From NCBI GenBank assembly GCA_903863015.1, contig CAIPAI010000057.1, positions 1-64,000 on the forward strand: DNA of 64,000 nucleotides, given 5' to 3'. The position numbers and the translations under genes were made by a program. This stretch comes from an uncultured Actinomycetes bacterium. Its GTDB lineage: Bacteria > Actinomycetota > Actinomycetes > Nanopelagicales > Nanopelagicaceae. The notes below the pieces were generated by a model, which was given only the letters and a program-made list of their open reading frames with translations, was not told where the DNA came from and made no database searches. Positions within the stretch are counted from its first letter, which is position 1. Each line of letters begins with the position of its first letter. Positions 1 through 20,331 of the stretch are shown one piece after another.

Positions 1-49
1 CTAAGAGAATGGTCTTATCGGATTGAACGATAAGTGGGCCGTCGGTCAT
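1..49 (-). CDS. XPB-type DNA repair helicase, N-terminus only
   Basis: Only the first 16 codons lie in the window; the gene runs off the left edge. The residues (MTDGPLIVQSDKTILL) match my memory of the start of actinobacterial XPB/ERCC3-like 3'-5' DNA helicases such as Mycobacterium Rv0861c. The start is backed by a TAAACT -10 box placed 6 bases upstream, which fits a leaderless message. The Rv0862c-like gene at 3125-5314, the usual neighbour of this helicase, is on the same strand, which supports the call. Nothing can be said about the helicase motifs because they lie outside. Confidence 0.8.
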   Translation of the reverse strand, partial: MTDGPLIVQSDKTILL

Positions 50-61
50 CCCTCCAGTTTA
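50..61 (-). promoter_or_regulatory. -10 box of the XPB helicase gene, leaderless type
   Basis: Read on the minus strand, TAAACT (56-61) is followed by six bases (GGAGGG) and the ATG at 49-47. The distance puts transcription start on the A of the start codon. The GGAGGG run touches the ATG and is too close to act as a normal ribosome binding site. Confidence 0.5.
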
Positions 62-101
62 TGGCCTGGAAGTACTTGCCGCTTACCGTGGGTTGGCTCG
101 G

Positions 102-1169
102 CTATTGAGCGAGAATCCGGGTAATAAGTGCGCCAGCCAGTCGAGCGCGTTCCGGAATGGCCGCTGCGCTTGCCCACTCGTTCGCCGCATGGGCGCCCTC
201 TCCCACGGCTCCAATTCCATCGATAGTCGGTATCCCGAGGGCTGCGGTGAAGTTTCCGTCGCTTGCTCCGCCCACTTGCGCGCTTCCCAATTCGGGCATG
301 CCAAGTTCCTTTGCGCACTCCTTTGCGATTTCAAAGAGACGGGCGCTGGAAGAGGGATCTAGTGGAGGTCGATTAACACCACCTTCAATTCGGACCGTGG
401 CTCCACCGATCGTGGTGCCTGCTAGAGAAGTGATTGCAGTGTGGACACGACTCTGTTCGGCAGTGGTGAAAGCGCGCACGTCAATATCTAATTGAGCAAG
501 TGCGGGAACAGTATTCAGGGTGGTGCCGGAGTGGAGCACGGTCGGAGTCACCGTGGTACCTACTGCGCCATTTGCGGCGGCCAAAATTTCTGGGAAGAGC
601 GTGGCAATTTCTAAAGTGGCGTTTATGCCTTTCTCTGGCTCGAGACCGGCATGTGCGGCTCGTCCTTCAACAATCACCCGATACATGGAGGTGCCTTTAC
701 GCGCAGTTTTTAATTTTCCATCGAGTGAAGCTTCGAAAACTAAAACAGCTTCAGCTCCGCTGGCAATCTCTTCAATGAGCGCTTTGGAACATTCACTTCC
801 AGTCTCCTCATCAGTAGTAGCCAGAATGGTGACCCCATTGCGATCTGAAAGAGATTGGAGTGCGTAGGCAGCTTGTACAAATCCAGCTTTCATATCGAAA
901 ACTCCTGGACCGCGAATCACGTCGCCACTTACCTGCCAGAGTGGCTCGAAGGAGCCGTGTGGCCAAACAGTGTCCAAATGAGTGAGGAGTAGAACGCGCG
1001 GCGTAGCACTTCCCCAACGCAAGGTGGGCCTCCCGAGCACATCGTGCACCTCGCCCGGGGTTCCCAGAAGTTCAGTCAGGATGGCGTTTGCCTCAGCGAT
1101 CACTTTCCGGCAGGCATCGATATCTTCGGTAGGTGAGGAGATTTCCACGAGGCGGCGAACGAGTTCCAT
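102..1169 (-). CDS. M20 family metallo-amidohydrolase (carboxypeptidase G2 / desuccinylase type)
   Basis: A 355-residue cytoplasmic protein of the M20 peptidase family, which uses two zinc ions to hydrolyse N-acyl amino acids or peptides. Visible family motifs are HLDTVWP near residue 65, GPGVFDMKAG near residue 90 and the catalytic TTDEETGS near residue 120; the dimerisation lid follows and the C-terminal catalytic part returns with GASDGN. It is divergent from the GNAT gene by 37 bases and sits next to an enolase-superfamily racemase. In Geobacillus the same three families were shown to convert D- to L-amino acids through N-succinyl intermediates, with an M20 enzyme as the desuccinylase. 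The N-succinyl-L-amino acid substrate is therefore inferred from context. A CAAGAT box 6 bases before the ATG may be its -10 element. Confidence 0.88.
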   Translation of the reverse strand: MELVRRLVEISSPTEDIDACRKVIAEANAILTELLGTPGEVHDVLGRPTLRWGSATPRVLLLTHLDTVWPHGSFEPLWQVSGDVIRGPGVFDMKAGFVQAAYALQSLSDRNGVTILATTDEETGSECSKALIEEIASGAEAVLVFEASLDGKLKTARKGTSMYRVIVEGRAAHAGLEPEKGINATLEIATLFPEILAAANGAVGTTVTPTVLHSGTTLNTVPALAQLDIDVRAFTTAEQSRVHTAITSLAGTTIGGATVRIEGGVNRPPLDPSSSARLFEIAKECAKELGMPELGSAQVGGASDGNFTAALGIPTIDGIGAVGEGAHAANEWASAAAIPERARLAGALITRILAQ

Positions 1170-1206
1170 GTAGTTATCTTGCCAGTCGAAGTGGTTAGGT
1201 AGGGGT

Positions 1207-2004
1207 ATGAGCGAAGTCCGAATCGAAATCCTCGCGGAATTGCCGCGTCAGCGACTCGCTCGCGAGCTCTTTGACGTGGTTTGGCCGGGTGACGAGGGCA
1301 CGCAAATTACCCCCAATCTCTTGCAAGCCATGGTGCACAACGGCGCCTATCTCTCTGGTGCGTTTATTGATGAGAAGTGCGTGGGTGCGGCCTTCGCGTT
1401 CCCTTCAAAAGGTAGCGATGACCATCTGCACTTGCACTCACACATGGCAGGTGTGCTCGACACCTATCGCGATCGCAATATTGGGTACGCCCTCAAGGTT
1501 CATCAACGTGAATGGGCAATAGCCCACGGCTATGACCTCATTACGTGGACCTTCGACCCGTTGGTTTCGCGCAATGCCAATTTGAATATCACCAAACTCG
1601 GCGTTGAGGTTCCTTTCTACCATCGTGATTTCTACGGCCAGATGCCCGATGCGGTAAACGCAGGTGACGCGAGTGATCGCGTGATGGCCTATTGGCACTT
1701 AAATTCTACACGAGCAAAGAATGCGCTCGCCGGTGAGGAGTGCGCAATTTCAAATGCTCCGTTTCTGCTCGCCGAAATAAATGGAGAACCTGTGGAGCAG
1801 GAAGTCCCGCGCGACGCAAAAGAAGTACGCGTGGCACTTCCGACAAATATCACCGACCTGCGCTCGCAGAATATGGAACTCGCTCGAAATTGGCGTCAAC
1901 ACGTTCGTGGTGCGCTGGAACCCCGCATGGCATCAGGATGGAAGATCACCGGATTTACTCAAGATCGCTGCTACGTACTGGAGGAAAAAAATGCGCATTC
2001 ATGA
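1207..2004 (+). CDS. GNAT superfamily acyltransferase, candidate amino acid N-succinyltransferase
   Basis: A 265-residue protein of the predicted GNAT group COG3375. The acyl-CoA-binding region is recognisable around residues 78-100 (HSHMAGVLDTYRDRNIGYAL) with the following segment ITWTFDPLVSRNANLN typical of the group; no membrane segment or signal peptide is seen. The last 14 bases overlap the start of the racemase gene, so the two are translationally coupled. In the described succinyl pathway a GNAT enzyme moves succinate from succinyl-CoA onto a D-amino acid, and that role is inferred here from the M20 and racemase neighbours. The ATG at 1207 has an AGGGG run 2-6 bases upstream, which is close for a ribosome binding site. 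Confidence 0.82.
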   Translation: MSEVRIEILAELPRQRLARELFDVVWPGDEGTQITPNLLQAMVHNGAYLSGAFIDEKCVGAAFAFPSKGSDDHLHLHSHMAGVLDTYRDRNIGYALKVHQREWAIAHGYDLITWTFDPLVSRNANLNITKLGVEVPFYHRDFYGQMPDAVNAGDASDRVMAYWHLNSTRAKNALAGEECAISNAPFLLAEINGEPVEQEVPRDAKEVRVALPTNITDLRSQNMELARNWRQHVRGALEPRMASGWKITGFTQDRCYVLEEKNAHS

Positions 2005-3088
2005 AATTGAGATTCGCCACGTGGGTGTTCCTTTGGTGCGTCCTTTCCGCACCTCGTTTGGTACGCAGACCGAGCGCGATCTCTTAGTGCTCAAAGTCAG
2101 TACAGACGTTGGTGATGGTTGGGCAGAGTGTGTTGCGATGTCAGAGCCGCTCTACTCTCCCGAGTACACGCATGGGTGTGAAGATGTTTTAGAGCGCTTC
2201 CTAGTTCCCGCATTACGAAAAGTCGGAGACCTTCGAGCTGAAGAAGTCGCCGATATTTTGAAACCATTCTTGGGGCATCAAATGGCTAAGGCAGCAATTG
2301 AAACCGCTCTCCTTGATGCCGAGTTGAAGCATGAGGGTCGTTCCTTCGCATCATTCTTCGGTGCTGAGAAAGAGGAAGTTGATTGCGGCGTCTCGGTAGG
2401 AATTGCAAACAGCATCGATGCTCTCCTTGAAGAGGTAGGCGATTATGTCGATCAGGGCTACCGCCGGATCAAATTGAAGATTGAACCAGGTTGGGACCTG
2501 GAACCTGTTCGAATCGTGCGCCAGACCTGGCCCAAGATGCCATTACAGGTAGATGCAAATCAGGCATATTCGCGCGATGACGCCGCTCACCTTGCCGGGC
2601 TCGACGAATTCAACTTGCTGCTCATCGAGCAACCACTCGATGAGCATGATGTGCTCGGTCATGCTCTGCTATCCCGCGCAATTCAGACGCCTGTCTGCCT
2701 GGATGAATCGATTACCTCACTCCAATCAGCTCGTGATGCAATCGCGATGGAAGCCACCACTGTCATCAACATTAAGCCAGGTCGAGTAGGTGGATACTTC
2801 GAGGCGATCAAGATTCATGACTATTGCGTTGAGGAAGGCATCCCAGTCTGGTGTGGCGGAATGCTCGAAACTGGAATTGGTCGCGCCGCCAATCTTGCAC
2901 TTGCTGCACTCCCTGGTTTCACTTTGCCGGGAGACACTTCGGCTTCGAATCGCTACTACTTACGTGATATCACCACACCTTTTGTCATGGTAGATGGGCG
3001 AATCCGCGTACCTAAGGGACCGGGAATCGGTGTTGATATCGATCACGCATTCTTGGAGAGCGTTACCTTGAGCAAGCGTACGATCTAG
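1991..3088 (+). CDS. N-succinylamino acid racemase / o-succinylbenzoate synthase family enzyme
   Basis: A 365-residue enolase-superfamily protein of the muconate-lactonizing subgroup. It shows the KLK acid/base pair (RIKLKIEPGWD), metal ligands in VDANQAY, IEQPLD and CLDES, and the second catalytic lysine in NIKPGRVGG, followed by GGMLETGIGR. This pattern is shared by OSBS and N-succinylamino acid racemases. A separate MenC sits inside the menaquinone operon at 14572-15549, so this copy is unlikely to be needed for menaquinone. With the coupled GNAT transferase and the M20 hydrolase it is best read as the racemase. The reading frame is open further upstream to 1781, but homology begins at the ATG at 1991, preceded by GGAGG at 1980-1984. 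Substrate specificity cannot be read from sequence alone. Confidence 0.85.
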   Translation: MRIHEIEIRHVGVPLVRPFRTSFGTQTERDLLVLKVSTDVGDGWAECVAMSEPLYSPEYTHGCEDVLERFLVPALRKVGDLRAEEVADILKPFLGHQMAKAAIETALLDAELKHEGRSFASFFGAEKEEVDCGVSVGIANSIDALLEEVGDYVDQGYRRIKLKIEPGWDLEPVRIVRQTWPKMPLQVDANQAYSRDDAAHLAGLDEFNLLLIEQPLDEHDVLGHALLSRAIQTPVCLDESITSLQSARDAIAMEATTVINIKPGRVGGYFEAIKIHDYCVEEGIPVWCGGMLETGIGRAANLALAALPGFTLPGDTSASNRYYLRDITTPFVMVDGRIRVPKGPGIGVDIDHAFLESVTLSKRTI

Positions 3089-3124
3089 ATTTTTACCAAG
3101 CAGAACGGGTGAACGAATTTAATC

Positions 3125-5314
3125 TTAACTATCTAATTGTGCGACGCCAGAAATACGAGCTATAGCGAATCGCTTGATTTCTCCTGAGATTTGGTCGAAG
3201 GCGGTGACGTATCCGGCGGCAATGGCCATCGGTTCGATGATCCTGTGCGTCAGTCCTCCGTCAGTATCTGCGTACCCGATCCAGAGTGATCCGCCGGTAC
3301 CGCTCATTTCTTGGAGAAAACGTAAAGTATCGCTTGCGGTAGTACGTGGAGTTTTTGCGAGTTGAGGCAAAGTGCGCTGCTGTGTAGAGACGTGTTCACC
3401 AGTGCGTAGGGCGCGCAGGGCGGCAGTGAGCAATTCAGGGGTAGGTATCGAATAGTCGCCAATGAGTCGTGGCGGGCGAGGTCTTGATTTAGATCTCTTG
3501 GCTGATGGTGAGGTGAGCGTTGTCATGCCGTCGTTACCCTCGGCCGCGGGAGCGTATCCATGTGAACGCAGCGTCTCAAGAACTTCTTCAAGAGGAGCTG
3601 GGGAAATGATCACAGTCGGGGCAAGGCGACGGAGTTCAAGTGCGACGAGGCGCCTATCTTGCATCGCTTCAGCCAGAATCGCTTCATCATCACATCGCAG
3701 GTAGGAGTGCACCGCGCCGACACGAAGGCGTCCATATCTCTTGGCAATGTCATGAATTTGATAGGTAAGTGACTGTGGCACTTCAGTCTTTGAAACCTTC
3801 TTAATGAACGCTTCGATCTTTTCCGAGTCGTAACCCACGTCGAGTGCGTGGCGCAATGATTTTTCGGAGAATCTAAAGACGGTTGCAGTGCCGCGGCTTT
3901 CAACCTCTGCCATCAAGGAAATTTCTCGGAAGATTTCCGGGTAGAGCGGCCCCGGAGCAATAGCGGTGTGGTCCCCTTGAAGGAGAACGTGATCTATCAA
4001 TGGTGGAAGTTGGCTAGCGAGCAAGGTTGGCTCTTCGTCAGCGAGTAGTTGCCGGGCAAAGGATGTAAATGCCCCGCGTCCGGTAATTCCTAGCCAGTGG
4101 GCTTCGCGCACTGTCCACTCAACAAATTCGGCTTGTAAATGTTTTGCTCGGCGAGGCCGGTTCCACGCCACGAGATCGATGAGCGAATCTAGTGTGGGTG
4201 CAAGATCGACATGAGTTGCTAGTAATTCGAGAGTGAGTGCGCGCAGTCCTGGTGCGGCGGCGCGATCTAATTCAGGGCCGAGGGGAGCGACACCCTTGCC
4301 TTCTTTTGGAGTACAGAGGCCAGCGGTTCGAGAAGTAATGAGCCATTGAGCCGCAATCTCTCTCCAGCGCTCAACAGGTGTGCGTGCAAGCCAAAGGTCG
4401 TATGCACTCGTCGGCATTATTCGGTCATCAATATCTATGGAGACTAGGCCTATGGCGAATGCACTCTCCGCGACGAATGCTGCGCACGCTTCGGTTACTC
4501 CCAAGAGTTGCGCAGCGCGTTTGAGTTCTCGGATACTCATTCCGCCGCTACGTAGAGCACTTCCAGGTTCGCGTGACCATGCTTCGAGGAGATCTTCAAC
4601 CCACATTAAGAACGCGGCCGCTTCATGTGCTCCGGCGCGATCTGCATCCTTCACATTCTCGCCGCTGAGTAAAGGCTTAACCGAGTGGTACTCGTGATGA
4701 ACCTTATCTCCGCGTAATGCAATCGCATACTCTGCAGGAAGCATTACGTGATGCGAATCTGCGATCACCAGGATTTCATTATCTAACAGCCATTGCATTC
4801 CTGGACCGGGATTCTTCAGATCCTTCACGCTCCCGCGCGATGGCCCCCAGGTGAGCTTCTTCAACATTTCCTGCGATGCTTCGGGCGCCTTCTTTAAATT
4901 GATTTTCTCGACGCGGCTTCCAAGACGTTGTCCGAGGCCACATAATTCAGGACCAAAAGTCTCTCGCACTCCGCGAGGAATTCGATAAGCGCCCTCGTCC
5001 TTATAAAGCAAGCAGAGTCGATAGAGGTGCGCGACCACATTCGATGATGGAACGCTTGTATATCTTTCGACATCTTCTAGTGAAACAGGTTCCTCTAGAC
5101 AAGCCATGAGTTCTAGAACTTCTAGTTCCCATTGATTCAGTGAGTCAAAGGCTCGTGAAATGCTCGGAGTGGAATTTGCGCGTGCAGCTAAGGCGCTGAT
5201 GTCAGGCGGTACGGGAGAGAGTAAATCAGGGCGGGCAGCTAGCAAGGCAGCCAATGCAGCATCGTCGCGACCGCGAAGGTCGTCGGCGAATGAGCGATGC
5301 GTTGGCTTTGACAT
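3125..5314 (-). CDS. Rv0862c-like helicase-associated protein (Helicase_C_3 type)
   Basis: A 729-residue protein that I recognise as the homologue of Mycobacterium Rv0862c, the large protein normally encoded next to the XPB helicase. The N-terminal third carries winged-helix-like segments (for example SLEDVERYTSVPSSNVVAHLYR), and the part near residues 500-590, with HDIAKRYGRLRVG and PAPLEEVLETLRSHGY, resembles the Helicase_C_3 domain of XPB. A basic linker (SAKRSKSRPRPPR) precedes a final WYL-like segment. No helicase ATPase motifs are visible, so it is probably a partner or regulator of XPB in DNA repair rather than an enzyme on its own. In Mycobacterium the two genes adjoin; here three amino-acid genes separate them. 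The function is not established. Confidence 0.75.
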   Translation of the reverse strand: MSKPTHRSFADDLRGRDDAALAALLAARPDLLSPVPPDISALAARANSTPSISRAFDSLNQWELEVLELMACLEEPVSLEDVERYTSVPSSNVVAHLYRLCLLYKDEGAYRIPRGVRETFGPELCGLGQRLGSRVEKINLKKAPEASQEMLKKLTWGPSRGSVKDLKNPGPGMQWLLDNEILVIADSHHVMLPAEYAIALRGDKVHHEYHSVKPLLSGENVKDADRAGAHEAAAFLMWVEDLLEAWSREPGSALRSGGMSIRELKRAAQLLGVTEACAAFVAESAFAIGLVSIDIDDRIMPTSAYDLWLARTPVERWREIAAQWLITSRTAGLCTPKEGKGVAPLGPELDRAAAPGLRALTLELLATHVDLAPTLDSLIDLVAWNRPRRAKHLQAEFVEWTVREAHWLGITGRGAFTSFARQLLADEEPTLLASQLPPLIDHVLLQGDHTAIAPGPLYPEIFREISLMAEVESRGTATVFRFSEKSLRHALDVGYDSEKIEAFIKKVSKTEVPQSLTYQIHDIAKRYGRLRVGAVHSYLRCDDEAILAEAMQDRRLVALELRRLAPTVIISPAPLEEVLETLRSHGYAPAAEGNDGMTTLTSPSAKRSKSRPRPPRLIGDYSIPTPELLTAALRALRTGEHVSTQQRTLPQLAKTPRTTASDTLRFLQEMSGTGGSLWIGYADTDGGLTHRIIEPMAIAAGYVTAFDQISGEIKRFAIARISGVAQLDS

Positions 5315-11740: not shown

Positions 11741-12607
11741 TTATGCACTGACCGCTAACCCAAAGGCTAGGAATACGGAGAAGGCGAGTTGGGTTTTGCT
11801 TGTAGCCGCTAAGACCGGGAGAAGTTCCATATCTCGGGCGCCTGCTCTGATCGCCCTCAAAGGTTCAATCACAAAGATTCCAGCCGTGAGTGCAATCACC
11901 GCGCCTGTGCGCCATCCCGCAAGGAGAGCGACAGAGAGAAATGAGATGAAGATGGCACCTTGGTAAAGGGCTCTTGCCTTTGGATCACCAATGCGCACCG
12001 CCAAAGTCTTTTTGCCTACTTGGGCATCGCGCGGAAGGTCTCGCAAGTTATTGGTGAGTAGGAGGGCGCAAGCCAAGCTACCCATCGGAATTGCAGCGAT
12101 AAAACTGATCGCATCTAGGCGTTCAGTTTGTACGAAGTAGGTCCCTACGACTGCGATGAAGCCGAAGAAAATGAAGACGCTCACTTCACCCCAGCCGCTA
12201 TACCCGTATGGCTTCTTGCCACCGGTGTAGCCCCAGGCCGCAAGGATCGAAAGAGCGCCAACAAGAATGAGCCATGGCGTAGTTAGCAATGCGAGCCAAA
12301 GACCAGCGAGAGCACCAATGAAGAAGAAGAGAAACGCTGCAGTGCGCACATGTGCCGCGGAGACTTTGCCACTACCTACTAGCCGCAGCGGTCCCACTCG
12401 TTTGCTATCACTTCCTCGGATTCCGTCGCTGTAGTCATTGGCAAAGTTGACGCCGATTTGAAGTGCAAGGGCAACTACGAGAGCCAAAAGTGCGCGACCA
12501 GGAAGAACGTGTGGCGCAGCGGCGCCAGTTCCTACTAACACGGGAGCGATGGCTGCCGGCAAGGTGCGAGGACGTGATCCTAGAATCCACAGTTTTGCTT
12601 GTGACAT
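11741..12607 (-). CDS. menA: 1,4-dihydroxy-2-naphthoate polyprenyltransferase MenA
   Basis: A 288-residue UbiA-superfamily prenyltransferase with eight or nine membrane helices. The aspartate-rich motif NFANDYSDGIRGSD near residues 65-78 and the second motif NNLRDLPRDAQVGKKTLAVR near residues 185-204 bind the Mg-polyprenyl diphosphate and DHNA. It makes demethylmenaquinone using the polyprenyl tail supplied by the synthase at 36813. A TAGGAT -10 box overlaps the stop codon of the upstream menE, so it seems to have its own leaderless promoter as well as any read-through from menE. Confidence 0.95.
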   Translation of the reverse strand: MSQAKLWILGSRPRTLPAAIAPVLVGTGAAAPHVLPGRALLALVVALALQIGVNFANDYSDGIRGSDSKRVGPLRLVGSGKVSAAHVRTAAFLFFFIGALAGLWLALLTTPWLILVGALSILAAWGYTGGKKPYGYSGWGEVSVFIFFGFIAVVGTYFVQTERLDAISFIAAIPMGSLACALLLTNNLRDLPRDAQVGKKTLAVRIGDPKARALYQGAIFISFLSVALLAGWRTGAVIALTAGIFVIEPLRAIRAGARDMELLPVLAATSKTQLAFSVFLAFGLAVSA

Positions 12608-12619
12608 TTTCAGATCCTA
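12608..12619 (-). promoter_or_regulatory. -10 box of menA inside the end of menE
   Basis: Minus strand TAGGAT (12614-12619), then CTGAAA and the ATG of menA. The TAG that opens the hexamer is the stop codon of menE. Confidence 0.5.
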
Positions 12620-13687
12620 AATCTCTTCGGTAATTGGCAGACCCTTGAGGGTATCGCGATCTGGTTTGCCGATTCCACGCAAGGGCATCTCGGCAAGGAG
12701 AATAAGTGCACGCGGCGCAGAGGATCGAGGAAAGAACTCCGCCACATGATCACGTATAGAGCTCAAGGTAATTGAGTCTCCTCCTGCTACGGCACAGACA
12801 ACTTCTTCGCCCCACTCTGCGCTCTTGCGCGTGAATAGATGCGCGTCTAAGACGCCGGGCATACTCCGTATTCGTTCTTCGATTGCTCCAAGGAGGATCT
12901 TCTCGCCACCAGAAATTACGACCTCATCTGCGCGACCCAGAATTTCTAGCAGACCATCTTCTCGCCATTGGCCAATATCTTGGGTAAGAAATCCGCCGTC
13001 TTGAAATCCGGTGGAGTCATGCAAATATCCGAGCGCGACCTGTGGACCACTCACGAATATTTGTTGCGCGCTATCAAGGACTATCTTTACGCCAGCAAGC
13101 GGTCTTCCGTTATAAACACATCCGCCTGCAGTTTCACTCATCCCGTAGGTAGTGATCACATTTATCCCCGCGGCTCGCGCCTCTTCAATTAATTTCACTT
13201 CGCTTGGACCGCCGCCCACTAACACCGCTTTGGCATTTTGTAGAGCAACCAGAGTTTCGCCGCCTTGAAGCGCGCGGAAGAGTTGTGTAGGGACGACTGC
13301 TTGGTACTCCCCATTCTCGGAAAGTGCCGAGTCGAGGAGTAAAGAACGAACGATGACCATCAGGCCAGCGATGTGGGTGAGCGGTAAGCGCAGCGCCCAA
13401 CGCTCACCTGGTTGTGCACCTAAGTAGGCGTGGGTGGCACGCGCACTTTCGAGCAAGGTACTCGCACTATGCAATACGAATTTGGCACTTCTAGTGCTGC
13501 CGCTAGTAGCCACCACCAGCGCCACCTCACTTGGGACCTGCGGGGGATCAGTCGGCCGCACGGCCTCTTCTAGAACGAGGAGCGGGGGGCCGGCATCAAA
13601 GAGGGCAGATTTGAGCGCAGTAGTGATCTCGGCCAGTTGGTTTGGCGCGAAGATCACAACTTCCCGAAGAGACGACTGGGCACCCAC
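12617..13687 (-). CDS. menE: o-succinylbenzoate-CoA ligase MenE (short actinobacterial form)
   Basis: A 356-residue acyl-adenylate-forming enzyme. It is shorter than E. coli MenE but close in length to the mycobacterial form. The phosphate-binding loop is [11 protein letters not shown] near residues 59-69, a later motif is [10 protein letters not shown], and the C-terminal hinge is [16 protein letters not shown]. The adenylation lysine is expected in the GKPDRD segment near the end. The GTG start at 13687 is preceded by TAGCCT and six bases; this box overlaps the -10 of menB on the other strand. It activates OSB with CoA for MenB. Confidence 0.92.
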
Positions 13688-13705
13688 GCCTCTAGGCTAT
13701 CTCTC
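13688..13705. promoter_or_regulatory. Bidirectional promoter with overlapping -10 boxes between menE and menB
   Basis: Only 18 bases separate the two start codons. The central 7-mer TAGGCTA (13693-13699) gives TAGGCT on the plus strand, 7 bases before the menB GTG, and TAGCCT on the minus strand, 6 bases before the menE GTG. Both messages would be leaderless, and the two polymerases could not bind at the same time. Confidence 0.55.
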
Positions 13706-14575
13706 GTGAGTAAGCCAATTAAGCGCACCAGCGTGAGCCGTGAAATTCCTTCTTGGATCTCCGAGGGGGAATTCACCGATATCACCTATGAAGTAGCCGA
13801 AGGTATGGCGAAAATTACTATTAATCGTCCTGAGGTCCATAACGCATTCCGCCCCCAGACGCTCTTCGAATTGGCCGAGGCTTTCAACATGGCCAGAGAC
13901 GATGACTCGGTCGGAGTCATCATTTTCACCGGTGCTGGCGATGAGGCTTTCTGCTCTGGTGGCGATATCCGAATCCGCGGAAACGATGGCTATCTCGGAG
14001 AAGACAAACTTTCGAAGAAGGGCGTGGGTCGACTCAACGTTCTTGATCTACAAATTCAGATTCGCCGAACGCCTAAACCAGTAGTGGCGATGGTTGCTGG
14101 TTGGGTCATTGGCGGTGGACATGTGCTTCATGTCGTCTGCGACCTCACTATCGCGGCGGATAACGCGAAGTTCGGACAAACTGGCCCCATGGTTGGTTCC
14201 TTCGACGGTGGATTCGGCTCCGGATTGCTCGCCCGCCATGTGGGACAGAAGAAGGCTCGCGAAATTTGGTTCCTCTGTCGTCAATACGATGCGCAAGAAG
14301 CTCTCGATATGGGTCTTATCAACACGGTCGTTCCACTTGCAGAGTTAGAAGCCGAAACTGTGCAGTGGGCGCGCGAAATGTTGCAGCACTCGCCTATGGC
14401 GCTTCGTTTGCTCAAGGCATCAATGAATGCTGCAGACGATGGATTAGCCGGCGTTCAACAATTAGCTGGTGATGCCACGTTGCTCTTCTACTTAACTGAA
14501 GAAGGACAAGAGGGACGCGACGCATACAAAGAGAAGCGCGAACCACGATTTGATCGTTTTCCTCGACGTCCGTGA
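13706..14575 (+). CDS. menB: 1,4-dihydroxy-2-naphthoyl-CoA synthase MenB (type I-like)
   Basis: A 289-residue crotonase-fold enzyme that closes the naphthoate ring. The oxyanion-hole region is [12 protein letters not shown], and the MenB hallmark is [16 protein letters not shown]. The C-terminal half (for example [20 protein letters not shown] and [12 protein letters not shown]) closely resembles E. coli MenB from memory. The glycine in QTGP is the type I feature associated with bicarbonate dependence; mycobacterial MenB has an aspartate there. I chose the GTG at 13706 because of the leaderless -10 box. A second GTG at 13733 and an upstream frame open to 13637 are less likely. It overlaps menC by four bases. 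Confidence 0.94.
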
Positions 14576-15549
14576 ACTTTCCATCGCTCGCTGAACTCTC
14601 TGATTCACTTCGCGTTGTAGCGATACCGCTGAAGCAGAAGTTCCGAGGGATAACTACGCGGGAGGTTGCGCTCTTTGAAGGACCTTTCGGTTGGGGTGAG
14701 TTCTCTCCCTTTCTGGAATATGACGTTGCAGAGTCGAGCAGGTGGTTAGCGGCGGGGATTGAATCCGCCTTTGTTGGTTGGCCAGCGCCCAAGCGAGAAG
14801 TTATCGAGATCAATGCCACCATTCCTGATGGAACCCCCGAAGAAGCAGTTGCCGCACTTGCATTCTTTCAAGGTTGTCGGACTGCAAAAATTAAAGTGGC
14901 TGGCACGCATAGTTCCCTCGATACGGCTCGACTTGTTGCAGTGGAAAGAGTGCTCGGTGACTCTGGAAAAATACGGATTGACGCAAATGGGTGCTGGAGC
15001 GTGGCTGAAGCGTTGAAGCAGATCACTTCCTTTTACGAAGTGCTCGGTAACACCCTTGAATACGTCGAGCAACCATGCGCCACCGTGAGCGAAATCGCAC
15101 AGGTTCACGAGAAGCTTTCAGTACCAGTGCCGTTAGCCATTGACGAAGGAATTCGCAAAGAGGGTTATACGCGCAATCTCTCCGATATAGCCGATGTGGC
15201 AATTCTCAAAGTGGCTCCGATGGGGGGAGTGAAGAACGCACTGCACATTGCACAACAGCTTGATATGCCAATCGTGGTCTCTAGCGCGCTTGAAACGAGC
15301 ATTGGAATGCGTGCGGGCCTGGCATTAGCCGCCGCCGTTCCAAACCTTCTCGGCGCTTGCGGGTTAGGCACCGTCGATCTCCTCGGTGGGGATGTTATTT
15401 CGCACTCGCTCGTAGCTGAAGATGGCGCCATCGGGCTTCGTGAAGTAGTGCCCTCGTTGGAATTGTTAGATCGTTGGGCCGCACCAGATCGAGCTCAGTG
15501 GTGGCAAAATCGTCTCACTATGACTTATGAATTTCTGGATCGTCGATGA
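14572..15549 (+). CDS. menC: o-succinylbenzoate synthase MenC
   Basis: A 325-residue enolase-superfamily enzyme that dehydrates SHCHC to OSB. It shows the KIK lysine pair (AKIKVAG), metal ligands in IDANGCW, YVEQP and AIDEG, and the second catalytic lysine in ILKVAPMGG followed by [11 protein letters not shown]. It is much diverged from the enolase-family enzyme at 1991-3088 and lacks that protein's long N-terminal capping segment. GTG start overlaps the menB stop (GTGA), and its end overlaps menD by four bases. Confidence 0.93.
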
Positions 15550-17135
15550 ACGACTCAACCTTGCAAGCCGAAGCGCTCGCAGAAGCGCTCTATTCGGCTG
15601 GTGTGCGAGATGTAGTTATTGCACCGGGGTCTCGCAGCGCGCCGTTGGCGTTGGCGCTGGCGCGACGTGATCAGTTCAACCGCCACATCCATATCGATGA
15701 ACGTTCTGCTGGCTTTGTTGCTTTAGGTATCAGCAAAGCCACCAGCCGTCCGGTTGCCACCGTCTGCACGAGTGGAACTGCGACCGCCAATTTTCACCCC
15801 GCTCTCCTGGAAGCTTCACATAGCGATGTTCCATTAATAGTGATCACTGCGGACCGTCCCAGCGAGCTGCAGGGGATTGGTTCTAATCAGACAACCAATC
15901 AAAGTGCGCTTTATGGCTCGGCTCTGCGCCACTTCTTGGAGATAGAAGCCGGAACATCTCTTGCATGGATCGATCACTTCAATAACGCTGTCGACGGCTT
16001 GAACGGCCCGATGCAAATAAATATCGCTTTCCGTGAACCACTTCTCCCTGAAGGAGAAGTGGTTTCTCAAGTGATTCCAGCATTTGAAGTGAGCGCACAG
16101 GCTGAAAAGATGGCGCCGGCTCTCTCCGAGTTAGGCATCACTTCGGGTCAACGTGGGGTGGTGGTTGTCGGACACGGATTAGGAACTTTCTCTCGCCGGG
16201 AAATTTCAGCATGGTCCACGCGACTGGGTTGGCCGGTAGTTGCCGAAGATCCGCTGAGTCATTCTGCGGCTATCCAACATGCTTCGATACTCGTAGGCAC
16301 AACATTTGCAAGTGAAAAGTTGCAACCCGAAGTGGCTTTAGTAATCGGAAAGATTGGACTGTCGAGGTCCGTCATGGCATTGCTCACTCGCACGTCGCGA
16401 GTAATCGGAATTGATTCTCATCACGAAGTGTCGAACCCCTTACGTAAAAATGAAGTGCAACTAGCGGCGCTTCCTCGCGTTGATGTCGATGCTGATCCGA
16501 ATTGGCTTCAGGCTTGGCATCAAGCGAGCGCTAAAGCCGCTGACGCTCTTGCTTTGCCCACTTGGTCTGAACAAAACTTGGCGGCTATTTTCGCTCGATC
16601 ACTACCGAGTGGCAGCTCCCTCTTCATTGGATCGAGTCGTCCCATTCGCGATATTGAAGCCTTTGCAGCGCCTCGCGGCGATATCGACGTATTTGGAAAC
16701 CGCGGGCTGGCCGGAATCGATGGCAACATTTCTACCGCTATTGGCATTTCCCGAGTAAGGCCAGGAAGGACATTTGTCTATCTTGGGGATATTGCTTTCT
16801 TGCACGATGTAAATGCGCTCATTAACGATGCGCCGAATCTCACGGTGGTCGTTGTCGATAATAACGGCGGCGGCATCTTCTCTACTTTGCCTCAACGCGG
16901 AGTTGATCATTTCGAGGAAGTTTTTGGAACTCCACATAATCGCGATCTCACGGCGATCGCCGCTGGCTTCGGGGTTCATGTCACTCGGGTAGCAAGTCTT
17001 CAAGAATTTGAGCAAGCGCTCTCTCAAGAGCACGCTGCCCTTAATGTGATCATCGCAGCAATGCCAAGTAGAGATACAAGTGCGGACTCTCTCAAGAGCG
17101 CCATGGCTCTTGTTGAAAAGGCACTTCAGGGATGA
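15546..17135 (+). CDS. menD: SEPHCHC synthase MenD (thiamine diphosphate-dependent)
   Basis: A 529-residue ThDP enzyme that joins 2-oxoglutarate to isochorismate. The N-terminal pyrimidine-binding part has VIAPGSRSAPLALA and HIDERSAGFVALG; the C-terminal part has FGNRGLAGIDG and the ThDP/Mg motif with VVVDNNGGGIFSTLPQ. It overlaps menC and the following hydrolase by four bases each, so all four genes form one unit. A perfect 12-base inverted repeat with a 5-base loop lies inside the gene at 16036-16064. Confidence 0.95.
   Translation: MNDSTLQAEALAEALYSAGVRDVVIAPGSRSAPLALALARRDQFNRHIHIDERSAGFVALGISKATSRPVATVCTSGTATANFHPALLEASHSDVPLIVITADRPSELQGIGSNQTTNQSALYGSALRHFLEIEAGTSLAWIDHFNNAVDGLNGPMQINIAFREPLLPEGEVVSQVIPAFEVSAQAEKMAPALSELGITSGQRGVVVVGHGLGTFSRREISAWSTRLGWPVVAEDPLSHSAAIQHASILVGTTFASEKLQPEVALVIGKIGLSRSVMALLTRTSRVIGIDSHHEVSNPLRKNEVQLAALPRVDVDADPNWLQAWHQASAKAADALALPTWSEQNLAAIFARSLPSGSSLFIGSSRPIRDIEAFAAPRGDIDVFGNRGLAGIDGNISTAIGISRVRPGRTFVYLGDIAFLHDVNALINDAPNLTVVVVDNNGGGIFSTLPQRGVDHFEEVFGTPHNRDLTAIAAGFGVHVTRVASLQEFEQALSQEHAALNVIIAAMPSRDTSADSLKSAMALVEKALQG
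16036..16064 (+). repeat. 12-bp perfect inverted repeat inside menD
   Basis: AACCACTTCTCC (16036-16047) and its exact complement GGAGAAGTGGTT (16053-16064) enclose the loop CTGAA. The stem can extend by one G-U pair. It lies wholly in the menD reading frame and has no T-tract, so it is not a standard terminator. Confidence 0.6.
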
Positions 17136-17680
17136 GTCGATCCTTTCTCTTCCTTCACGGGTGGCGAAACCTGCGTCCGGCGGGGCATTGGCAGTACCAA
17201 AGTGCGATGAATCTGCGGGCTAAGGGAGAAAATGTTGAGTACCCGGCCTTGCCGCTACCCGATACGCCGCAACTTGAAGAATGGCTTGGCGTTTTTGAAA
17301 CTTCGTGGGAGCGAATGGAAGGCGAGCGCATTGTCGTAGCGCATTCTCTTGGGACCACGCTCTGGTTTCACGCAGCAGCCCGCGGCTTTGTGGCGGATCG
17401 AGTGCTGCTGGTTGCGCCTGCCGGTCCCACGTTTTTGAAAGAGGAGAAACTAGTTTCCTCTTTTGCTTCACTGCCCACGAAACTTGCCGATCCCAACTGG
17501 CGAGTTGTGTGTAGTGACCAAGATCCGTTTTGTATTGAAGGAGCGGTTAATTGGTTAGCACCGGAAGATCACGACTTGATTCCGGGCGGCGGACATTTAG
17601 CGCTCTCTGATGGTTATGGAGATTGGCCATCACTTGTGCAATGGTGCGATAAACCAGAAACCAGAATTGTGGGACGTTAA
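17132..17680 (+). CDS. RBBP9/YdeN-like alpha/beta hydrolase in the men operon
   Basis: A 182-residue small alpha/beta hydrolase. The oxyanion segment FLHGWRNLRPAGHWQ is at residues 6-20, the nucleophile is in VVAHSLGT near residue 72, the acid is in VCSDQDPFC near residue 130, and the histidine is in PGGGHLALSDGYGDW, the RBBP9 pattern. It is coupled to menD by a 4-base overlap and faces menF tail to tail with another 4-base overlap. No classical menH is present in the window, and in Mycobacterium an alpha/beta hydrolase (Rv0554) also lies between menC and menD. It is a candidate for the SHCHC synthase or the DHNA-CoA thioesterase step; this is inferred only from position. Confidence 0.8.
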   Translation: MSRSFLFLHGWRNLRPAGHWQYQSAMNLRAKGENVEYPALPLPDTPQLEEWLGVFETSWERMEGERIVVAHSLGTTLWFHAAARGFVADRVLLVAPAGPTFLKEEKLVSSFASLPTKLADPNWRVVCSDQDPFCIEGAVNWLAPEDHDLIPGGGHLALSDGYGDWPSLVQWCDKPETRIVGR

Positions 17681-18915
17681 AACTCGAGCGCATCTCGCAT
17701 CGGAACAAGCTTTGCTTGGCTCTCGGCAAGTTCGTCCTGCGGAACAGAACCTGCGACAATTCCGCATCCCGCAAAGAGACGAACCTTGCGCGCATCCTTT
17801 GCGTCAATCTCGGCGCACCTTAGGGCAATGCCCCACTCGCCATCACCGCGTGCATCAATCCAACCGACTGGTCCGGAGTAGCGCCCACGCTTCATGACTT
17901 CGTATTCATTGATAAGTTTCATCGCCTTCTCTCTAGGCGTTCCGCATACTGCCGCTGTGGGATGAAGCGCATCGACTAGTGAGAGTGCGTTGGTCACTGC
18001 CATGGAGTCAGATACAACTCCTGTGACGTCGGTGGCTAGGTGCATCACGTTTGCTAAGTGCAAGACGAATGGTGCATCTGGGACGTTGATTGAAGAGCAA
18101 AAAGGTTCGAGCGCATCGGCCACGGAGCGAACTGCATAGTCGTGCTCTTCTAGGTCCTTTGAAGAACGAGCTAGCGAAGCAGCTAGTGCTAAGTCTCGTT
18201 GATCATCGCCAGTACGACGAATGGTGCCAGCAAGAACGCGAGATGTGACTAGGCCCTTTGTAAGGCGAACCAATAATTCGGGGGTGGCACCTACTAATCC
18301 ATCCACTGCGAAGACCCACGTATTCGGGTATTTCTCTGCAAGTTTCTCCATGACGACACGTGCATCTATTGGTTCGGCAGCAGTTGCAGTGATGTCGCGG
18401 GCAAGCACCACCTTTTCTAATTCTCCTGAAGTGATGCGCGTAATCGCGTGGCCCACCGCGTCTTCCCACTCACCAGCCGAGAGACTGCCCTCGCCCCACG
18501 AGAGCGGCGAACCTTTTCTTACTGGTCGCAATTCATGATTGAGTGGCGCAGGTGCACCAATGCGCGTTATCCAAGAAGTTTTTCCGCGTTTGCCTACAAC
18601 AACTCGGGGAATAATAAATACTGAGTCTTCTGCAGCATCAAATGAGAATGATCCGAATGCAATCGGCCCACTACCAGGGACGCGAATATGGTCATTAATT
18701 CGAAAGCCTTTAAGTTGTTCTCGCCACCACTGAGCCGCATCTTCAAATCGGGTCGGGCCGGAGAAATGTGCCTTTGCATATTCGCCGTATCCAATGATTC
18801 CTTCACCGCTGCGTACCCAAGTGAGTGGAGCGGAGTCAGGGAGTAAGGCAATGAGCTCGCCGGTGCCTTCGAAAACGACGCTTTCGACGTCGACGCGAGA
18901 AAGTGGTGCATCCAT
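17677..18915 (-). CDS. menF: Isochorismate synthase MenF
   Basis: A 412-residue chorismate-binding enzyme that converts chorismate to isochorismate, the entry to menaquinone. Diagnostic C-terminal segments are LAGTIRRTGDD, DLEEHDYAVRSV, AVCGTPREKA and GRYSGPVGWID, the last containing residues of the Mg-binding site. The N-terminal 130 residues are less conserved, as usual. It is preceded by bioY on the same strand with a gap of only five bases, so both are probably cotranscribed from a promoter ahead of bioY. Confidence 0.93.
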   Translation of the reverse strand: MDAPLSRVDVESVVFEGTGELIALLPDSAPLTWVRSGEGIIGYGEYAKAHFSGPTRFEDAAQWWREQLKGFRINDHIRVPGSGPIAFGSFSFDAAEDSVFIIPRVVVGKRGKTSWITRIGAPAPLNHELRPVRKGSPLSWGEGSLSAGEWEDAVGHAITRITSGELEKVVLARDITATAAEPIDARVVMEKLAEKYPNTWVFAVDGLVGATPELLVRLTKGLVTSRVLAGTIRRTGDDQRDLALAASLARSSKDLEEHDYAVRSVADALEPFCSSINVPDAPFVLHLANVMHLATDVTGVVSDSMAVTNALSLVDALHPTAAVCGTPREKAMKLINEYEVMKRGRYSGPVGWIDARGDGEWGIALRCAEIDAKDARKVRLFAGCGIVAGSVPQDELAESQAKLVPMRDALEF

Positions 18916-18920
18916 ATTGG

Positions 18921-19520
18921 TTACTTTGCGCGCAACCTAGCTAGCACTGCCCAAATTCCGGGGAGCAGCGTTCCAGCTAAAGCGATTTTGATTCCTTCAA
19001 CTCCGAGAAATTTCACGCAGCCATTGTAGAAAGCATCGCCCAGACCCATGTGATAACTGGCGGCGAGCATCAAAACTCCAGGGATAAAGATGAGTGCTTC
19101 ACCAATGAGCATCTGCAGCAAAGCGGTGGGAACTTTGCTATCCCACTTGCGCTCTGCCAAGTAGCCGACTGCAAATGATGCGAGCAACATTCCGAAGAGA
19201 TATCCACCCGTTGGTCCAAAGAGGGCCGCGAAACCACTATTGCCTTGGCTAAAGATCGGGGCGCCGAGCGCTCCAATGAGTAAGTAGGCGCCGAGAGTGG
19301 AAACCCCGAGGGCGTAGCCATAAGAGGTGCTGATGAGAAGCATGCCGAGCGTCTGCCCGGTGATCGGCACTGGCCAACCTGCAGGTTGGATCGCTACTTG
19401 CGCCATCGCTGACATGAAGCCCACCCCGGCGGTGATGAGGAGCGTGTTCGTCACGCTCCGAGAGAGGCGTGCGGTGCGTGGGGTGAGTGCCAAGCGGAGT
19501 GGATGGGCAAGAGTGGTCAT
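18921..19520 (-). CDS. bioY: Biotin transporter substrate-binding subunit BioY
   Basis: A 199-residue integral membrane protein with about six helices of the BioY family, the S-component of ECF biotin transporters. Typical segments are WPVPITGQTLGMLL near residue 50 and the GPTGGYLFGMLLASF motif near residue 106. No ECF ATPase or transmembrane coupling genes lie beside it, so it would use a shared ECF module or work alone. The ATG is preceded by GGAGGAAG, a strong ribosome binding site. The absence of biotin synthesis genes nearby hints at uptake dependence but does not prove it. Confidence 0.92.
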   Translation of the reverse strand: MTTLAHPLRLALTPRTARLSRSVTNTLLITAGVGFMSAMAQVAIQPAGWPVPITGQTLGMLLISTSYGYALGVSTLGAYLLIGALGAPIFSQGNSGFAALFGPTGGYLFGMLLASFAVGYLAERKWDSKVPTALLQMLIGEALIFIPGVLMLAASYHMGLGDAFYNGCVKFLGVEGIKIALAGTLLPGIWAVLARLRAK

Positions 19521-19605
19521 TCTTCCTCCGTCATAAATGTGAGCGTGTGCCTACGAGAGCGTAGCCGACTGGCAGCAGATGAGTCGGATAGGGGATGATT
19601 ACCCC

Positions 19606-20331
19606 ATGAGTCGCGCCCACCTAGATAAATCGCCGAATGAAGTTGCGTCGATGTTTGATCAGGTGGCAAAGGCCTACGACATCACCAATGACGTGCTTTC
19701 GCTCGGTCAAACTCGTAGATGGCGCAAGGTAGTTCAGGGCGCGATTGCGCCAAAGCCGGGCGAATACATTCTGGATCTCGCTGCCGGAACTGGATCATCA
19801 TCTCTACCTCTTGCATTGGCCGGCGCCACAGTGATTCCGTGCGATTTCTCGATCGGAATGTTGGAAGTCGGCAAGAAGCGTCAGCGCGGCTCGGCGATTG
19901 AGTGGGGATTCACAGCGGGCGACGCCCTCAAGTTACCTTTCGCCGATAAGTCATTTGATGTTGTCACCATTTCATTTGGTCTTCGTAACGTTTCAAATGT
20001 GGACACTGCTCTCAAAGAAATGTTGCGTGTAACAAAGGCTGGCGGACGTTTAGTGGTCTGTGAGTTTTCGCACCCTACCTGGCGCCCATTTCATACTCTG
20101 TACAACGAATACCTTATGAAGGCATTGCCTTCTATCGCGCGCAAGACCTCATCCAATCCAGACGCCTACGTCTATCTTGCAGAATCAATTCGCGCATGGC
20201 CGTATCAACATGAATTGGCTGATCAAATTGAGGACGCTGGCTGGGAGAGCGCACAATGGCGCGATCTGACTGGCGGGATTGTGGCGATCCATCGGGCAAC
20301 TCGTCCTGCAGAAAGCCCAGAAAACCAATAG
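19606..20331 (+). CDS. menG: Demethylmenaquinone methyltransferase MenG (UbiE family)
   Basis: A 241-residue class I SAM methyltransferase of the UbiE/MenG family. It shows [20 protein letters not shown] at the N-terminus, the SAM loop [16 protein letters not shown] near residue 56, and the family motif [20 protein letters not shown]. The start is placed at the ATG at 19606 where family homology begins ([17 protein letters not shown]); the frame is open to 19579. An AUG-AUU-ACC-CCA-UGA mini-frame at 19595-19609 ends across this ATG. It performs the last methylation of menaquinone. Confidence 0.93.

Follow-up and report, generated by a model that had tools for sequence, protein, structure and literature searches.

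A probable D-amino acid salvage unit with an ancestral place beside XPB in streamlined freshwater actinobacteria

In an uncultured member of the Nanopelagicaceae, genes for an M20-family hydrolase, a GNAT acyltransferase and an enolase-superfamily racemase lie between two helicase-related genes, which raises the questions of what the three enzymes do together and how long they have occupied this place. The window analysed here is a stretch of 64,000 nucleotides (contig CAIPAI010000057.1, positions 1 to 64,000). Only the first codons of XPB, a DNA repair helicase gene, fall within it (1–46, minus strand; MTDGPLIVQSDKTILL), since the window starts at the contig end, which cuts the gene. The terminal 141 bases recur identically at the beginning of contig C36, where XPB occupies 105–1709, and this exact overlap indicates that the adjacency of XPB and M20 is real. 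The M20 (carboxypeptidase G2-like) gene (102–1169, minus strand) shares the strand of XPB and immediately precedes it, and its start codon diverges from that of the GNAT gene (1207–2004, plus strand) across 37 bp. The racemase gene (1991–3088, plus strand) overlaps the GNAT gene by 14 bases, with a Shine-Dalgarno sequence, GGAGG, ahead of its ATG. The Rv0862c-like helicase-associated gene, the upstream partner of XPB (3125–5314, minus strand; PF13625, Helicase_C_3), bounds the locus. The open reading frames and the 14-base overlap in a preliminary description of this DNA were reproduced.

The three genes were proposed there to be a complete D- to L-amino acid conversion trio. The N-succinylamino acid racemase (NSAR) pathway of Geobacillus kaustophilus, reportedly described by Sakai and colleagues in 2006 (Biochemistry 45:4455), is said to convert D- to L-amino acids irreversibly. 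The window encodes the same NSAR, GNAT and M20/carboxypeptidase G2-like families and, as far as gene content goes, would work in the same way, but M20 is divergent from GNAT-racemase and the unit is flanked by XPB and the Rv0862c-like gene. Because M20 is on the opposite strand, the trio is not one three-gene operon or single transcription unit; such a unit is the typical arrangement for a D-to-L N-succinyl relay, although it is not needed for function. A sigma-70 promoter scan of positions 1–3300 found none in the 37-bp divergent gap and overall no more than in shuffled sequences. As a reading of function, the trio is the best supported one, drawing on NSAR homology, the R266-equivalent residue, the second menC, the GNAT-racemase pairing, the M20 tie, and D-aminoacylase and serine hydrolase neighbours elsewhere. 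The pathway itself is already known, and the genes described here are probably a further instance of it. What is new is the age and conservation of the place beside XPB, together with the divergent layout and an M20 left without its partners.

M20, GNAT and the racemase probably constitute a D-amino acid salvage unit, operating as a D-to-L N-acyl relay and ancestral at XPB. The GNAT would transfer an acyl group, most likely from succinyl-CoA, to a D-amino acid, and the racemase, with its lysine pair K163/K262 and by way of a metal-stabilised enolate, would turn N-acyl-D and N-acyl-L forms into each other. M20 would hydrolyse the N-acyl-L form only, releasing free L-amino acid and succinate and pulling the equilibrium, so that the net outcome of the three-enzyme relay would be irreversible conversion of D to L. 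Such a relay could give streamlined freshwater actinobacteria a concrete way to draw on the D-amino acids of peptidoglycan and dissolved organic matter, a nutrient class with poorly known consumers. A search of one paper library found nothing on D-amino acid use by this actinobacterial lineage.

The identity of the racemase is central to this proposal. The protein aligns end to end with the Amycolatopsis NSAR, its closest solved homologue (PDB 1sja; phmmer E 1e-139), carries MR_MLE_N/C domains, and scores 313 bits against TIGR01928 (cut-off 200.65), a model that names its members o-succinylbenzoate synthase (OSBS). The two catalytic lysines (K163/K262) and the three acidic metal ligands (D188/E213/D238) of the MLE-type barrel are invariant in 146 racemase homologues. 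Also invariant (146/146) is R265, the equivalent of R266, an arginine associated with racemase specificity. The likeness to the Amycolatopsis NSAR/OSBS (PDB 1sja, 4a6g, 7s8w) thus covers the full length (E ~1e-139), the catalytic residues and R266, with the 7s8w entry having Gln at the R266 position (NIKPGQVGG in the alignment). Unlike that enzyme, the window racemase belongs to another order, overlaps a GNAT gene and has a second menC in its genome. Membership in the NSAR/OSBS subgroup, judged from residues, best fits these features, and N-succinyl-amino acid racemisation is predicted.

NSAR enzymes are often bifunctional, and some catalyse both the NSAR and the OSBS reactions. Together with the name of the TIGR01928 equivalog, this raises the alternative that the gene is merely a second o-succinylbenzoate synthase for menaquinone. 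Another gene of the window has a stronger claim to that role. A dedicated menC (14572–15549, plus strand), which lies outside the unit and is adjoined by menD (15546–17135), scores 369 bits against the PRK02901 equivalog (cut-off 288), and by eye its KVAPMGG stretch has Pro rather than Arg three positions after the second catalytic Lys. The surrounding positions 11741–20331 form a compact menaquinone-looking cluster with menA-, menE-, menB-, menC-, menD-, isochorismate synthase- and methyltransferase-like genes. The racemase gene is neither in this cluster nor the sole menC, and the presence of a cluster with its own menC supports separate roles for the two genes. The claim in the preliminary description that a second true menC at 14572 leaves the racemase free of a menaquinone role is therefore upheld. 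Queries with menD and menC2 against 85 racemase loci found no match. With the strict GNAT pairing and the R266 equivalent in 146/146 homologues also counting against it, a mere second OSBS is most improbable.

Assignment of the GNAT gene depended on structure prediction, as it matched no Pfam or NCBIfam model. Its AlphaFold2 model (pLDDT 91.8), computed from an alignment limited to the window and loci of other genomes, has a GNAT fold, with a Foldseek probability of 1.00 to GNAT enzymes, and matches enzymes such as Naa50 over ~160 alignment columns; the C-terminal ~100 residues are extra beyond the Naa50-type match. An acyl-CoA binding RxxGxA motif was read by eye at residues 90–95, of which G93 is invariant. 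The protein is ~32% identical to a Bacillota (Priestia) homologue, the one compared. On the strength of the model, the product is placed in the GNAT superfamily and proposed to be a D-amino acid N-succinyl(acyl)transferase.

For the M20 protein (PF01546, PF07687), the closest solved relative is carboxypeptidase G2 (PDB 1cg2), with which the catalytic motifs align, although it is a distant one (E 2e-30) and a glutamate carboxypeptidase. The metal-binding and catalytic motif residues H64, D66, D92, E121, E122, E146 and H327 are invariant in 67 homologues, and the protein is proposed from its sequence to be a putative N-succinyl/N-acyl-L-amino acid hydrolase. Identification as ArgE or DapE, either of which would have accounted for its fixation, was rejected: the protein reaches no ArgE or DapE cut-off, and DapE is encoded elsewhere in the genome (TIGR01900, 507 bits, L206).

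None of the sequence markers examined discriminates between succinyl and acetyl groups, or between D and L forms, for either GNAT or M20; we infer the acyl donor, the D-selectivity of GNAT, the L-selectivity of M20 and the nutritional role. The relay might instead run on acetyl-CoA, by way of N-acetyl-amino acids, or on several acyl groups. According to PMC8762209, which cites Sakai et al. 2006, the described GNAT works with either acetyl- or succinyl-CoA on aromatic D-amino acids and gives their N-acetyl and N-succinyl derivatives, and the Amycolatopsis enzyme racemises N-acetyl-methionine with a Km of 18–40 mM (PMC8142540). Such weak Km values point to N-acetyl compounds as poor substrates for this racemase family, which is named for N-succinyl substrates, and a relay running on acetyl-CoA or on several acyl groups is rather unlikely. 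A Geobacillus NSAR/L-succinylase combination has been used for L-amino acid production (PMC7431475).

The distribution of the genes ties the three enzymes together. Among 61 family genomes, GNAT and racemase occur together in all 29 carriers (Fisher p = 4.6e-18, a value that ignores relatedness), and pairwise dN/dS among congeners is 0.03–0.2 for M20, GNAT and racemase alike, consistent with purifying selection. Taken together, these observations indicate that the association is not due to chance. The GNAT gene adjoins that of the racemase in 77 of 80 loci from named genomes; of the other three loci, two lie where a contig ends. NSAR, GNAT and M20 genes are co-located in other genera as well as in the window, and collinear M20-GNAT-racemase sets occur in Planotetraspora, Actinophytocola, Acrocarpospora and on a Streptomyces plasmid. 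The sets of Streptosporangiaceae, Pseudonocardiaceae and the Streptomyces plasmid (L178, L189, L115) contain the same trio, with M20 ~51% and racemase ~60% identical. They differ in having all three genes on one strand, several of them with PucR, serine hydrolases or D-aminoacylase. A PucR-family regulator gene beside M20-GNAT-racemase was observed at L115, L189, L228, L229 and L230, where it may encode a regulator of D-amino acid use.

The main evidence for the direction of the relay comes from such neighbours, which place the genes in a D-amino acid or D-peptide context. Several other actinobacterial loci include D-aminoacylase-type amidohydrolases, serine hydrolases with a beta-lactamase fold and a PucR regulator. 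On a Deinococcus plasmid, genes for an ABC transporter, a serine hydrolase and a D-aminoacylase come after racemase-GNAT, and on a Sulfitobacter plasmid the racemase-GNAT pair comes after an amino-acid ABC transporter. Racemisation is reversible, with direction set by the stereochemistry of the GNAT and the hydrolase, so the relay could conceivably serve biosynthesis of D-amino acids or N-acyl amino acids. Since the D-aminoacylase-type, serine hydrolase and transporter neighbours are catabolic in character, this is quite improbable, and salvage is the reading adopted here.

The place of the unit beside XPB was examined across relatives. Named relatives among the loci (L152, L171, L170, L185) suggest that the genome belongs to Candidatus Nanopelagicales. 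XPB and the Rv0862c-like gene are immediate neighbours, leaving no space for a gene between them, in at least four other families of the class (G164, G167, G184, G192; judged from coordinates), which indicates that something was inserted in this lineage. The order XPB-M20-GNAT-racemase-Rv0862c-like is found in the genus of the window, in two further genomes of the family (G014, G008) and in the metagenome-assembled genomes (MAGs) L179, L182 and L185; in MAG L184, the racemase-Rv0862c side of the same order was seen. A recent insertion private to this genome was therefore rejected, as congeners and deep branches of the order have the same gene order. The earlier proposal that a trio was inserted between XPB and the Rv0862c-like gene is borne out by comparison with other families, but the arrangement is ancient and order-wide, and M20 stays where the pair is lacking.

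M20 is present in 59 of the 61 family genomes and lies next to XPB, with a gap of 11–67 bp, in all 56 that could be tested because both genes are on one contig; 29 of these 56 have no GNAT or racemase gene. A larger sample of 151 genomes contained M20 in 147, XPB in 147 and racemase in 43. Across relatives, GNAT and racemase are strictly paired, and M20 is at the site without the pair in 29 family genomes. The constancy of M20 beside XPB (56/56), with or without the pair, would suit a hydrolase of N-acyl-L-amino acids or peptides that is linked to XPB and acts independently, with only GNAT and racemase working together. Three observations make it unlikely that M20 stands outside the unit in this way. 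Of 60 class genomes sampled, 11 from outside the family carry the same M20 subfamily (47–51% identity), and in 8 of these it lies beside GNAT and/or racemase. Two MAGs (L186, L188) retain the divergent M20/GNAT-racemase unit away from XPB, L188 having another gene at the XPB site. The deep-branching loci of the M20 tree, moreover, have the pair alongside at the XPB site, while the pair is absent from the site throughout one derived clade of 25 rows; this is a quick tree, with the M20 genes of collinear sets as outgroup and with the rows L186 and L188, on which the conclusion does not depend, wrongly marked as XPB-linked. A single-origin test of the XPB-site racemases gave AU p = 0.16 for a set that counted L186 and L188 as XPB-linked, which neither is.

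The simplest account, in which M20 belongs to the unit, is that the order's ancestor already had the whole unit at the XPB site, with the Rv0862c-like gene on its other side, and that the pair would later have been lost or moved while M20 stayed with XPB. The result is an ancient XPB gene order whose M20 member outlives the pathway, as it does in roughly half of the sampled family genomes. The occurrence of M20 beside XPB in 29 genomes lacking the pair implies a use for M20 outside the relay, held or acquired. Either the orphaned M20 acts on a different substrate or it is protected by its position next to XPB. Tentatively, lineages without the pair may have kept M20 at XPB after it took an independent job, for example, hydrolysis of N-acyl-L-amino acids taken up by the cell or a role connected with the expression of XPB, and have it now as a fixed stand-alone gene; this is a possibility short of an even chance. 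If true, a step of a dedicated D-amino acid pathway would have turned into a stand-alone gene in an abundant freshwater lineage. The racemase gene is apparently broken in L050 (G037) and L058 (G047), of which one lacks an internal stretch and the other shows a stop codon and a change of frame. Barring assembly errors, this suggests decay of the GNAT-racemase pair in some genomes.

Additional genes were observed around these loci. Congeners have a gene for a LivJ/LivK-type substrate-binding protein (Peripla_BP_6) between racemase and the Rv0862c-like gene, on the racemase strand (L036:9549–10811, also L118, L119 and L120), and in another genus a related gene precedes the pair (L167, L168, L170). 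It is missing from positions 3088–3125 of the window, and a homologue search of the rest of the genome found none, from which the gene is judged to be lost in the window genome. In two congeners (L063:5106–7489 and L064), a GNAT paralogue, which the window genome does not have, directly follows a D-aminoacylase-like amidohydrolase gene. Another M20 hydrolase gene of the window genome (L204:170–2424, G000:C61) shares bases with the end of a gene for diaminopropionate ammonia-lyase, which scores over the cut-off of the PRK08206 equivalog.
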